From Methanobrevibacter sp. (GTDB lineage: Archaea > Methanobacteriota > Methanobacteria > Methanobacteriales > Methanobacteriaceae), in the NCBI GenBank assembly GCA_022775905.1, contig JALFJX010000025.1, forward strand, positions 1 through 64,000: a DNA stretch of 64,000 nt. The letters are read 5' to 3'. Under the pieces are notes generated by a model. It was given only the letters and a program-made list of their open reading frames with translations, had not been told where the DNA came from and searched no databases. Numbering within the stretch: position 1 is the first letter of the stretch; every line of letters begins with the position of its first letter. This document shows, in pieces, positions 6,331 through 16,730 of the stretch. The position numbers and the translations under genes are program-made.

Positions 6331-7027
6331 AATTTTAAACAGTTTAAACAAAATCGGTGGAGAAGATATTGAAACTAAATTTGGAGAGATTTTGGAAAGA
6401 TATCCTGAAGTTGTGGTTATTTTACCAAATATTCTAGCTGTTCGTGATAAAAAATTAGATGTTTTAGATCTAGACAGTGGTGAATTTAAAAATATTGAAT
6501 TTAAAAGTAAAAAATTTAATAAAGATGAGATAATTAATTTTTGTAAGGAATTTGGATTATTAGATATGTTTTCTCATATAGATGATTTGTATTCTTATCT
6601 TGTTGGTACTCAAGTAGGATTGGATACTCATGCGAGGAAAAATCGTAGTGGTAAGGTTTTTGAAGATATTGTAGGAAAATTACTTGCTGAAAAAATTAAA
6701 GATAAATCTGAATTAAGGTTAGGTAAAGAAGATACCATTCCTTTTGAGAGAACTAAACGATGGGATCATGTTATTTATAAACATGATGATCCGGTAATAT
6801 TTTTTGAATGTAATTTTTATAATGCTAGTGGAAGTAAACCTATTGAAGTAGCACATACTTATGCAGATTTATAAAAACAATTAAATGATTCTCAATATAC
6901 ATTTATTTGGGTCACTGATGGTAAAGGATGGAATAAGATGTCTAAATCATTGAAAGAAGTTGCTCCAGATATAAATTATATTTTAAATTATAGAATGCTT
7001 ACAAAATGTATTAATAATTTTATTTAA
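6331..7027 (+). pseudogene. Remnant of DpnII/MboI-type restriction endonuclease
   Basis: From about 6346 the sequence reads KIGGEDIETKFGEILERYPE, then GTQVGLDTHARKNRSGKVFED, then ECNFYNASGSKP. These match the DpnII restriction enzyme family, including the GLDTxxRKNRSG block and the FxExNFYxGSGSK block. TAA at 6872-6874 interrupts the protein after YADL; the same frame then continues QLNDSQYTFIWVTDGKGWNK to a natural end at 7025-7027, which matches the family's C-terminal WxTDGxGW. The first 50-80 residues are absent. Both M and R are dead, which is the safe order for loss of a restriction system. Confidence 0.85.
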
Positions 7028-7575
7028 ATTAATGGTAGTTTTGTGATGAATAAATCCCTAACTGTATCCATTGAATCTAATTTTATATATTTGATAGCTA
7101 GTTATTACTAATTAATGGTGAATTGATGGAGAAAATTAAATGTTCTAATTAAAAATGAAAACTTAAATGAATTAAAAGTGATATGTAAGTCACGTTTAAA
7201 AGGGATATTATTTTATATAATATTCAAAACAATTTAATACGTTAATTTCTAAATTATTAACTTAAAGAAATGAATTGAGAAGAAGCATGGGGTGTTTCAT
7301 GAAATAAAAAAAGATTATTCTTTTATGGGATATTAGTTGTTTATCTTATATAAACTTGTATTCATTATATGCGCTTAAACAAAAGCTTGAATATAATCAT
7401 TTTTTATTTTATTTTTTTAGAAACATTTTTATTATACTAATTAATTAAGTTATTCCATAGGTTTTATTCTATATCTCAATATAGCTGTCTACAAGTTTTA
7501 ATGTATTCGTACTATTTTTATATTTTCATAAAAATGTAAATAAACCTTTTTTTAATTTATTCGGAGGTTTTAATT
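7028..7575. other. Intergenic region with decayed duplication, otherwise no gene seen
   Basis: Apart from the fumarase-like fragment at 7057-7185, I find no supported gene in this 548-bp stretch. It ends in the ribosome-binding site GGAGGTTTT for the original start (ATG 7576) of the MATE gene. Confidence 0.5.
7057..7185 (+). repeat. Decayed copy of the fumarase beta promoter and first codons
   Basis: The stretch CCATTGAATCTAATTTTATATA..., then GGTGAATTGATGGA, then AAATTAAATGTTCTAATTAA, closely follows the promoter and 5' end of the intact gene at about 9108-9230. Only the first 25 or so codons are recognisable, and the reading frame is broken. The two copies bracket the MATE transporter gene. 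Confidence 0.75.
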
Positions 7576-13661: not shown

Positions 13662-13861
13662 TTGAAACCTCAAAGTAATTTTTCATTAATAATATAATTA
13701 TATATTAAATTATATATTAAATATTTGATTTTATAACATTTCTAGAAAAACTAATTTTGAATTTATTCATGTTTTTTAGATTAATTTAAAGGATTTATGT
13801 TAAGTTTTAAATTATATGGTTGTTATAGTATTATTGGTATAATAAAAAAGGAAGTTTATTC

Positions 13862-14683
13862 ATGGCGAGAAAAGACGGGAAGAAAATTTATCCAAAAGAT
13901 CCAGAACATATATTAATGCCATATTTGATGCGTACAAAACATGAATCCGAAGTTTATTTAAATCAAGAAATAGACATTACCGGTATTATCAATTGGGTTG
14001 ATGAAAAAAATAAAACTTCAGAATATAGATTAACTTTTTTTAATGTATTAATAGGTGTTGTTGCTAAAACTATTTACTCAAGACCTAAATTAAATCATTT
14101 TATTAAAAATGGTAGTTTCTATGAAAGACATGATGTAAGTATGGCGTTTGTTGCCAAAGATAAACTTTCAGATGATGCGGCAGAAAAATTAATTGTGTAT
14201 AAGGCAAAAGAAAATGATACTCCTTTGGAAATTGCTGAAAATATAGTTAAAGATGTTCATAGAGCAAGAAGTAGTGGAAATGAGTCTGAGGAGTTATATT
14301 CTAAAATAGCTTCATTACCTAAGCCTATTTTAAAACTTGTTGGTTGGGGAGCACATCTTCTTGACAAAAGGGGATTTTTGCCTAATGAAATGATGGAAAA
14401 TGATTTTAACTTTGCTACTGTTCTACTTTCTAATTTGGGAAGTATTAAATGTAGATCAGCATACCATCATTTAAATGAATATGGAACTAATTCCATTGTG
14501 ATTACTATTGGAACAATCTATGAGGAAGATGGTCGTTACAAAGTAGATATTGGTGCTACTTTAGATGAAAGAATCGCTGATGGATTTTACTTTGCTAAAT
14601 CATTAAAACTTGTTGAATATATCTCTTCCCATCCAGAATTGCTTGATGAAGAAGTAGGTAAAAAAGTGGAAATAGTTCATTAG
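13862..14683 (+). CDS. E2-like (2-oxoacid dehydrogenase / CAT-fold) acyltransferase, atypical active site
   Basis: A 273-residue stand-alone domain of the chloramphenicol acetyltransferase/dihydrolipoyl acyltransferase fold, without lipoyl or E1/E3-binding domains. It matches the E2 catalytic domain in overall layout: LTFFNVLIGVVAKTIYSRPKLN near residue 60, TVLLSNLGSI around 187, and the terminal motif LDERIADGFYFAKSLKLV around 230-250. In true E2 enzymes this last motif is DHRxxDG with a catalytic His; here Glu replaces it (DERIADG) while Asp-Gly are kept. The partner gene starts 10 bp downstream and encodes an acyl-CoA ligase, so an acyl-CoA may be the donor. The natural substrate is unknown. 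Confidence 0.8.
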   Translation: MARKDGKKIYPKDPEHILMPYLMRTKHESEVYLNQEIDITGIINWVDEKNKTSEYRLTFFNVLIGVVAKTIYSRPKLNHFIKNGSFYERHDVSMAFVAKDKLSDDAAEKLIVYKAKENDTPLEIAENIVKDVHRARSSGNESEELYSKIASLPKPILKLVGWGAHLLDKRGFLPNEMMENDFNFATVLLSNLGSIKCRSAYHHLNEYGTNSIVITIGTIYEEDGRYKVDIGATLDERIADGFYFAKSLKLVEYISSHPELLDEEVGKKVEIVH

Positions 14684-14693
14684 AGGAAAAAAC

Positions 14694-16412
14694 ATGGCAT
14701 TTTTAGAATTAGATACATCAAAAGTGAAGACACCATGGTATGGTTCATATGAGGATATACCTGAACATTTAGATTATCCTGATTACTCAATTTATGAAAC
14801 AATACGTAGAACTTGTGAAAAATATCCTAATGAGATTGCTTATGATTATTTTAACAGAAAAGTAACATACGGTGATTTTTTAAAAGAGATAGATATGATT
14901 GCAAAATCATTTGTTGCAATTGGAGTTAAAAAAGGGGATAAAGTTACTCTTGTCATGCCAAACACTCCTGAGGCAATCATTAGTTTCTATGCTTTAAATA
15001 AAATTGGTGCAATTTCAAATATGGTTCATCCATTATCATCACAAAATGAGATTAGACATTACATTGAATTATCTAAAAGTGTTGCTGTCTTGACAATTGA
15101 TGCAACATTTGCTACTGTTTACAATATTGTTCCTGGAACCACTGTTCAAAATATCATTGTAGCAAGTCCTAGTAACTCAATGATTTACATGAAACCTATT
15201 TATAAAACTACACAACTTACTTCAAACAGGATTCCTAGGGAAAAAGGAATTATTAAATGGTGGAGATTTAGAAGACTTGGTAGAAAGGTTGATTATGGTG
15301 TTGATGAATACACTGATGGATCATACCCTGCAACTATTCTATATAGTGGAGGAACAACTGGAAAACCTAAAGGGATTGTTTTATCAAATTTAAATTTCAA
15401 TGCATTGGCATTATCCAGTCTTACATTTGTTAAAATAGGTGTGGGGGATAAGATACTTGCAATTATGCCTATTTTCCATGGTTTTGGTCTCGGAGTCTGT
15501 GTACATACCTGTATGTCAGTAGGTGCTCAAAGTATTTTAATTCCAAGATTTGATAATAAAAAGTTCCATAAACTTCTCAAGAAACATAAACCTACAGTTT
15601 TAGCTGGAGTTCCTACATTATGGGAAGCAATGATTAATAATCCTAAAATGAAAAATATGGATTTATCATTTTTGAAAATAATGATTTCTGGAGGAGATTC
15701 ATTATCTGTTTCACTTAAACATAAAATGGATGCATTTCTAAAAGAACACAATGCAGACATTCAAGTAATGGAAGGTTATGGTCTTACAGAATGTGTGACT
15801 GGAAGTTGTCTAAACCCACAATATAGATGTAAGGATGGCAGTGTTGGAATTCCATATCCTGATATATTCTATAAAATTGTAAAACCTAATACTTGTAAAG
15901 AAATTCCATATGGTGAAGAAGGTGAAATATGTCTTTCAGGACCTACTGTCATGTTGGAATATCTAGATGAACCTGAAGAGACTGCAAATACATTGAAAGT
16001 CCATGAAGATGGATTAACTTGGTTGCATACAGGTGATTTGGGCCATATGGATGAAGAAGGATGGGTTTACTTCAAGTTAAGAATTAAAAGAATGATTGTT
16101 TCTAATGGATATAATATTTATCCGAGTCAATTGGAAAATATTATTGATGCACATCCTAATGTTAGTGTTTCAACTGTTATTGGAATACCTCATCCATATA
16201 AAAGGGAAGTTGCAAAGGCATTCATTGTATTGAAAGATGGTATTGAACCTACCGATGAAGTGAAACAAAACATTTACAATTATTGTAAGCAGAACATTGC
16301 TAAATATGCACTTCCAAAAGAGTTTGAATATCGTGATGAATTACCTAAAACTCTTGTCAATAAAGTTGACGTGATTCGTTTAATGGAAGAAAGTATAAAT
16401 GGAGCTAATTGA
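14694..16412 (+). CDS. Acyl-CoA ligase (AMP-binding, long/medium-chain fatty-acid--CoA ligase type)
   Basis: A 572-residue member of the ANL adenylate-forming superfamily. The phosphate loop YSGGTTGKPKGI sits around residue 217, the HGFGLG motif follows, MEGYGLTE lies around 357, and the hinge/A8 motif HTGDLGHMDEEGW...RIKRMIVSNGYNIYP lies around 447-478. The C-terminal catalytic lysine region is PKTLVNKVD. It should activate a carboxylic acid to acyl-AMP and then acyl-CoA. Substrate class is uncertain; methanogens lack fatty-acid synthesis of the bacterial kind. Co-operonic with the E2-like acyltransferase upstream (10 bp gap, GAGGAAAAA site). Confidence 0.9.
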   Translation: MAFLELDTSKVKTPWYGSYEDIPEHLDYPDYSIYETIRRTCEKYPNEIAYDYFNRKVTYGDFLKEIDMIAKSFVAIGVKKGDKVTLVMPNTPEAIISFYALNKIGAISNMVHPLSSQNEIRHYIELSKSVAVLTIDATFATVYNIVPGTTVQNIIVASPSNSMIYMKPIYKTTQLTSNRIPREKGIIKWWRFRRLGRKVDYGVDEYTDGSYPATILYSGGTTGKPKGIVLSNLNFNALALSSLTFVKIGVGDKILAIMPIFHGFGLGVCVHTCMSVGAQSILIPRFDNKKFHKLLKKHKPTVLAGVPTLWEAMINNPKMKNMDLSFLKIMISGGDSLSVSLKHKMDAFLKEHNADIQVMEGYGLTECVTGSCLNPQYRCKDGSVGIPYPDIFYKIVKPNTCKEIPYGEEGEICLSGPTVMLEYLDEPEETANTLKVHEDGLTWLHTGDLGHMDEEGWVYFKLRIKRMIVSNGYNIYPSQLENIIDAHPNVSVSTVIGIPHPYKREVAKAFIVLKDGIEPTDEVKQNIYNYCKQNIAKYALPKEFEYRDELPKTLVNKVDVIRLMEESINGAN

Positions 16413-16730
16413 TCTTCATTTATCTTATTATCTTCGTAAAAAAATTAATATTTTGAATTCATTGGTTTTTGTTCTTAAACAAACAATATTTTGGCTAATA
16501 ATTTTATTTTAAGGCCATTTTTTTCTATTTTTACTGTAAAAAACAATACATTTATATAGTGGGTATTACATACTTTATATTAATATATTCTCTGAGTATA
16601 AAAAAGTTGGTAGCATAAGAAGCTACGGATATTATAACTGATATAATATCTATGTAAATGTGTAAATTTAATTAGTGATATATAAATGTAGGGAAATCTT
16701 TATATACTTTATATTACATATTTTAATATA
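16413..16730. other. Intergenic region with two TATA elements and two hairpins
   Basis: The TATA-like TTTATATA at 16551-16558 and TTTATATAC at 16699-16707 are each followed by the similar string TACTTTATATTA. Between them lie a short hairpin (GTAGC/GCTAC, 16610-16626) and a perfect 9-bp hairpin (16628-16636 with 16642-16650). The upstream promoter could make a small RNA or a leader; the downstream one would start only a few bases before the next ATG. Confidence 0.5.
16699..16707 (+). promoter_or_regulatory. TATA box for a near-leaderless mRNA
   Basis: TTTATATAC is centred about 28 bp before the ATG at 16731. The archaeal spacing of about 25 bp to the transcription start puts the 5' end within a few bases of the start codon. 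No Shine-Dalgarno-like site is visible before this ATG. Confidence 0.55.

Follow-up and report, generated by a model that had tools for sequence, protein, structure and literature searches.

The window (the whole 64-kb stretch of DNA analysed here) is archaeal, as indicated by its archaeal L3, and it carries two adjacent genes, one for an acyltransferase-like protein and one for an AMP-forming acyl-CoA ligase (Table 1). The transferase matched PF00198 (2-oxoacid_dh) with 28.5 bits against a cut-off of 23 bits. This was the only Pfam domain matched in its 273 residues, and no lipoyl domain was found, in agreement with the earlier note on this DNA. The same note had pointed to the sequence LDERIADG (residues 234-241), in which Glu replaces the catalytic His of E2 and CAT enzymes (DHRxxDG) and the Asp-Gly pair is retained, and both statements were borne out. 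The ligase had AMP-binding (PF00501, 271 bits) and AMP-binding_C domains, with FadD-type long-chain models as the nearest ones, although their scores stayed under the respective cut-offs. Its motifs (P-loop-like, YGxTE, TGD and Lys) were intact and conserved among the ligases adjacent to other members of the transferase family, so that the description of an intact ligase in one operon with the transferase also holds.

Table 1. Features of the transferase-ligase locus (positions in the window)
Feature	Position	Strand	Remark
Segment of about 2.8 kb without counterpart at the orthologous position in three relatives (empty site)	13731..16517		
E2/CAT-fold (predicted) acyltransferase-like gene	13862..14683	+	273 aa, Glu at catalytic-His position
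Lys99	14156..14158	+	nearly invariant, 130/132 rows
S-N-L-G-S, residues 190-194	14429..14443	+	Ser190 aligned with the E2/CAT Ser/Thr of the oxyanion site; Ser194 nearly invariant
Y-H-H-L loop, residues 201-204	14462..14473	+	His202 invariant, His203 nearly invariant
D-E-R-I-A-D-G motif, residues 235-241	14564..14584	+	Glu236 codon 14567-14569
10-bp spacer with AGG-type ribosome-binding sequence	14684..14693	+	
AMP-forming acyl-CoA ligase, catalytic motifs present	14694..16412	+	572 aa
Ligase ATP-binding motif YSGGTTGKPKG	15342..15374	+	
Ligase motif PKTLVNK with C-terminal catalytic Lys	16344..16364	+	

Structure prediction, which the earlier note had proposed as a check, confirmed the E2/CAT fold at the level of a model: the AlphaFold2 monomer calculated with 55 family rows reached a pLDDT of 91.2 and a pTM of 0.89, and Foldseek agreed, with the E2 cores of Listeria and Bacillus at the top (1e-15; matches including 3mae and 1b5s) and CATI with chloramphenicol (3u9f) lower down at 2e-12. 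In a profile-profile alignment with canonical archaeal E2 (six catalytic domains), Glu236 lay opposite the catalytic His with 98.5% probability. The same alignment placed YHHLN, in the stretch after SNLG, opposite FTPII, with a two-residue insertion and hence a register of plus or minus one. The hhalign comparison with two approximate CAT sequences was weak (7.7% probability). Combined with the CAT pocket residues given in PMC12549896, the E2 alignment sets the YHHL loop against CAT residues 170-171, next to the pocket residues 168, 172 and 173.

The transferase shares with the E2 catalytic domain (PF00198) the fold, the D-x-R-x-x-D-G frame and the SNLG/TNIG strand, but differs from it in the Glu or Asp at the His position, in the YHHL loop with its insertion and in an extra helical segment at about residues 141-178; it also lacks lipoyl and E1/E3-binding parts, and its partner is the ligase and not E1. 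With CAT (PF00302) it has in common the stand-alone size, the fold (3u9f) and the lack of a lipoyl domain, whereas HHxxxDG is changed to DExxxDG (DERIADG here) and the sequence relation is weak. The CatA-like O-acetyltransferase family 3 (NF040638) matched residues 213-252 only, with 14 bits, far below its cut-off of 275 bits. Members of the family are named E2 by Pfam, and the name of PF00198, taken literally, would make the protein the E2 component of a 2-oxoacid dehydrogenase complex. This assignment is contradicted by the missing catalytic His and by the absence of lipoyl and peripheral-subunit domains in the 273 residues, and it was ruled out, with practically no probability left to it, by the genome itself, where we found no other PF00198 match and no match to E1_dh (PF00676) in a search that was positive in 13 of 14 controls.

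To follow position 236 across homologues, genome contigs were scanned, which yielded 80 loci, mostly from MAGs of gut Bacillota (Erysipelotrichaceae, Bacilli, Clostridia) but also from two horse-faeces archaeon MAGs and one Methanocorpusculum MAG. More distant members came from 348 genomes of the phylum to which a Ruminococcaceae member belongs. The degenerate peptide patterns used in the search left out residue 236, so the selection was not biased towards Glu. All 82 rows of the first alignment had Glu at this position, as did all 110 once members from further genomes were added; in the enlarged sample of 132 rows, which include a Vescimonas protein at 26% identity, there were 120 Glu, 12 Asp and no His. 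Some loci overlap, and the 132 rows correspond to 124 distinct sequences, with Glu in 118, Asp in six and His in none. The Asp forms (DDRxADG) were tandem transferase paralogues in three genomes (L190-L192, L198-L200).

Asp235, Arg237, Gly241 and His202 were present in every one of the 132 rows, Ser194 in 131 and His203 in 127. At residue 61 (14042-14044) this transferase has Asn where 113 of the 132 family rows have His, a difference that is possibly related to the substrate. In the profile search of 392 genomes, family members scored E values below 1e-50. With no intermediates, the next matches were weak ones with E values of about 1e-9 to 1e-6, a group within which the canonical E2 enzymes fall. 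The members have a carboxylate at the His site, a YHHL-type loop and the residues D235, R237 and G241, and the protein of the window shows all of these.

The replacement of His by Glu is thus a family trait of E2-like transferases, in a branch not previously filed. The earlier note had asked whether orthologues conserve the Glu or have His instead; orthologues with His were not found, and a local mutation or sequencing error was ruled out, since the carboxylate is universal at this position. As judged from the alignments, the family is broad and centred on gut Bacillota, and YHHL appears as a second invariant motif accompanying the Glu swap. The family is apparently uncharacterised: the Vescimonas protein, the sole member seen in an annotated record, is a 'hypothetical protein' there, and in the literature searched, with most subscription journals outside its coverage, we found no description of a natural Glu-type E2/CAT family.

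E3BP (protein X) is an E2 relative without the catalytic His. As this residue is missing in all members of the family, and as a loss of the E3BP type is known among E2 relatives, the transferase could be a pseudoenzyme, that is, a regulatory or acyl-CoA/acid-binding partner of the ligase. However, the site is not drifting. Position 236 is always occupied by a carboxylate, Asp235, Arg237, Gly241 and His202 are invariant and Ser194 is nearly so, a combination that, at the level of sequence, does not look like the pattern of a dead enzyme. We therefore regard a pseudoenzyme as improbable, and the pure substrate-binding role suggested in the earlier note as unlikely.

The ligase cluster was the most widely shared neighbour of the transferase, found in 31 loci either before or after the transferase gene. 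A ligase match (E ≤ 1e-60) was present in 29 of 30 transferase genomes, in 28 of them at 42-68% identity, whereas the Methanocorpusculum genome (L018, G131) had, away from the transferase gene, a tandem array of three ligases (C2:30302-35497) with 37-38% identity. Among 392 genomes drawn from one phylum, a close ligase occurred in all ten close-branch transferase genomes and in six of the 382 others (Fisher P = 3.8e-16). Divergent transferases were seen in two further Methanobacteriaceae genomes, together with ligases at 43-49% identity. For 24 adjacent pairs, the two proteins diverged together (Mantel r = 0.81, 0 of 2000 permutations), for which shared species history is partly responsible. 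The pairing is not universal, as the close ligase was absent from a divergent branch of 16 Bacillota genomes. In that branch (L102-L117; DERICDG/DERVVDG) the transferase lies among ABC transporter, lysyl-tRNA synthetase-like and other genes. In two genomes of the deepest branch (L139, L118, L119; DERIAEG/DERIGEG) the adjacent ligase is of a different kind (31-33%), possibly a second partnering.

Taken together, we infer a strong functional pairing of transferase and ligase in one acylation module, and the acyl-transfer system suggested in the earlier note gains support from both co-occurrence and co-divergence. Alternatively, the acyl-CoA made by the ligase could be hydrolysed by the transferase, with Glu236 activating water, in a thioesterase or CoA-recycling role. 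Atf1p, an HXXXDG enzyme, does hydrolyse acyl-CoA efficiently in vitro (PMC5484351), but a ligase-thioesterase pair would presumably amount to a futile cycle, and the His-His motif on the acceptor side is conserved; we consider such a role very improbable.

The segment containing both genes is missing at the orthologous site of three relatives, in which the flanks are continuous, with matches resuming at 13730/16518, 13732/16496 and 13730/16497. The empty site is clean and lies between pycA and an RNA-methyltransferase gene. Among the 37 genomes of the genus searched, the transferase was present in this genome and absent from the other 36. In the tree, the window transferase clustered with those of the two archaeon MAGs from horse faeces (support 99) within a mainly Bacilli set (support 96); these MAGs are likely other Methanobacteriaceae (L3 identity 81-84%), and the nearest homologues outside Methanobacteriaceae are from Bacillota. 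Composition gives no sign of transfer, because the G+C contents of the transferase (30.5%) and the ligase (32.0%) are like that of the window (31.5%). At the ends of the insert, the search for direct repeats gave just a 10-base match at chance level, and no mobile element was seen there. Given the confinement of the pair to this genome within the genus, the empty site and the Bacillota homologues, it is likely that the pair was gained by horizontal transfer from gut Bacillota, a direction that we infer; loss in all other members of the genus is less likely. The transferase probably entered methanogens more than once.

In CAT, the general base is His195, and its change to Ala lowers kcat about 9e5-fold (quoted in PMC5986005). 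In E2o, Asp374, one residue ahead of the His, matters as much as His375 itself, Trp is tolerated at position 375, and E2 activity is not absolutely dependent on its His (PMC5986005), so the analogy with CAT is not secure. Asp374 of E2o is kept in the family as Asp235. In 1994 Lewendon et al. (cited in PMC12549896 and PMC5484351) reportedly replaced His195 of CAT by Glu and proposed it as a general base. That study shares with the present family the Glu at the same position and its proposed role, but concerns a laboratory replacement, whereas here the carboxylate is universal in a natural family. With this precedent, the E2o data and the retention of Asp235, a carboxylate base acting on amine, alcohol or thiol acceptors is plausible by analogy. 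New chemistry, one of the options in the earlier note, does not follow from the swap, as a conserved carboxylate can serve as a general base. The protein can be viewed as a conserved and presumably active form of a fold and a type of reaction that are already known.

CAT is a homotrimer with its active site at the subunit interface. In S. aureus CAT, the acceptor pocket is lined by the residues matching CAT-III 168, 172 and 173, and the partner protomer supplies the catalytic His; by the equivalences Ser142/Ser148 and His189/His195, the two numberings are 6 apart (PMC12549896). Since the YHHL loop aligns beside these pocket residues, His202 and His203 may form part of the pocket wall on the acceptor side, opposite Glu236 of the adjacent protomer, within a register of plus or minus one residue. 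The invariant His202 would thereby be a candidate for the other active-site His that the earlier note had named as a refutation. This arrangement could also mean that the base has been relocated, with His202 (or His203) being catalytic, Glu236 orienting or charging it, and the dyad formed across the trimer interface. Both His residues always occur alongside a carboxylate at position 236, and the position of the loop fits; on the other hand, the two-residue insertion makes its register imprecise, and Glu by itself could suffice, as the CAT precedent suggests. We consider a relocated base possible but doubtful.

We favour, with a probability of roughly 60%, an acyl-CoA-dependent acyltransferase in which a carboxylate replaces His and which forms with the ligase a module gained from Bacillota. 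The ligase would convert a carboxylic acid via acyl-AMP to acyl-CoA, with a fatty acid as the likeliest substrate, and the transferase, probably a trimer, would pass the acyl group from CoA to a small-molecule or lipid acceptor. Glu236, in the place of the general-base His of CAT, would deprotonate the acceptor, and Asp235, Ser190/Ser194 and the His202-His203 pair, expected from the neighbouring protomer, would complete the site. The module, common in gut Bacillota, would have entered this gut methanogen horizontally as a 2.8-kb operon. Methanogens do not use fatty acids to build their own membrane lipids. A further, tentative proposal, to which we give rather less than even odds, is that a natural E2/CAT clade has given up catalysis by the His in favour of a carboxylate together with an invariant His that faces it across the site at the trimer interface, and that, with its ligase, it makes a novel acylated product, also in methanogens. 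As a lead, Chang et al. reportedly described in 2021 fatty-acid-amide gene clusters of gut clostridia, which likewise couple fatty acid activation to acyl transfer.

The His of E2, CAT and other HxxxDG enzymes is treated as a hallmark for calling members active or dead. If a broad gut family has a universal carboxylate at this site, that rule is unsafe. The Glu-type family would be a parallel in nature to the CAT experiment of 1994, and it points to an uncharacterised acylation module common to gut Bacillota and methanogens.

Apart from the ligase, the neighbours in Bacillota (GT4 glycosyltransferase, GDPD, metallophosphatase, flavodoxin, MFS) vary and indicate no single acceptor. The GT4 glycosyltransferase recurred upstream of the transferase (a cluster in ten loci; L005, L011, L046 and others), which may hint at a glycolipid acceptor. 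In one locus (L034), a gene for an aminoacyl-tRNA editing-domain protein (6776-7348) directly followed the transferase. We also noticed in a congener a CAT-like protein of 216 aa (L091) in which the His is kept and the Asp is lost (SHVFIFG).
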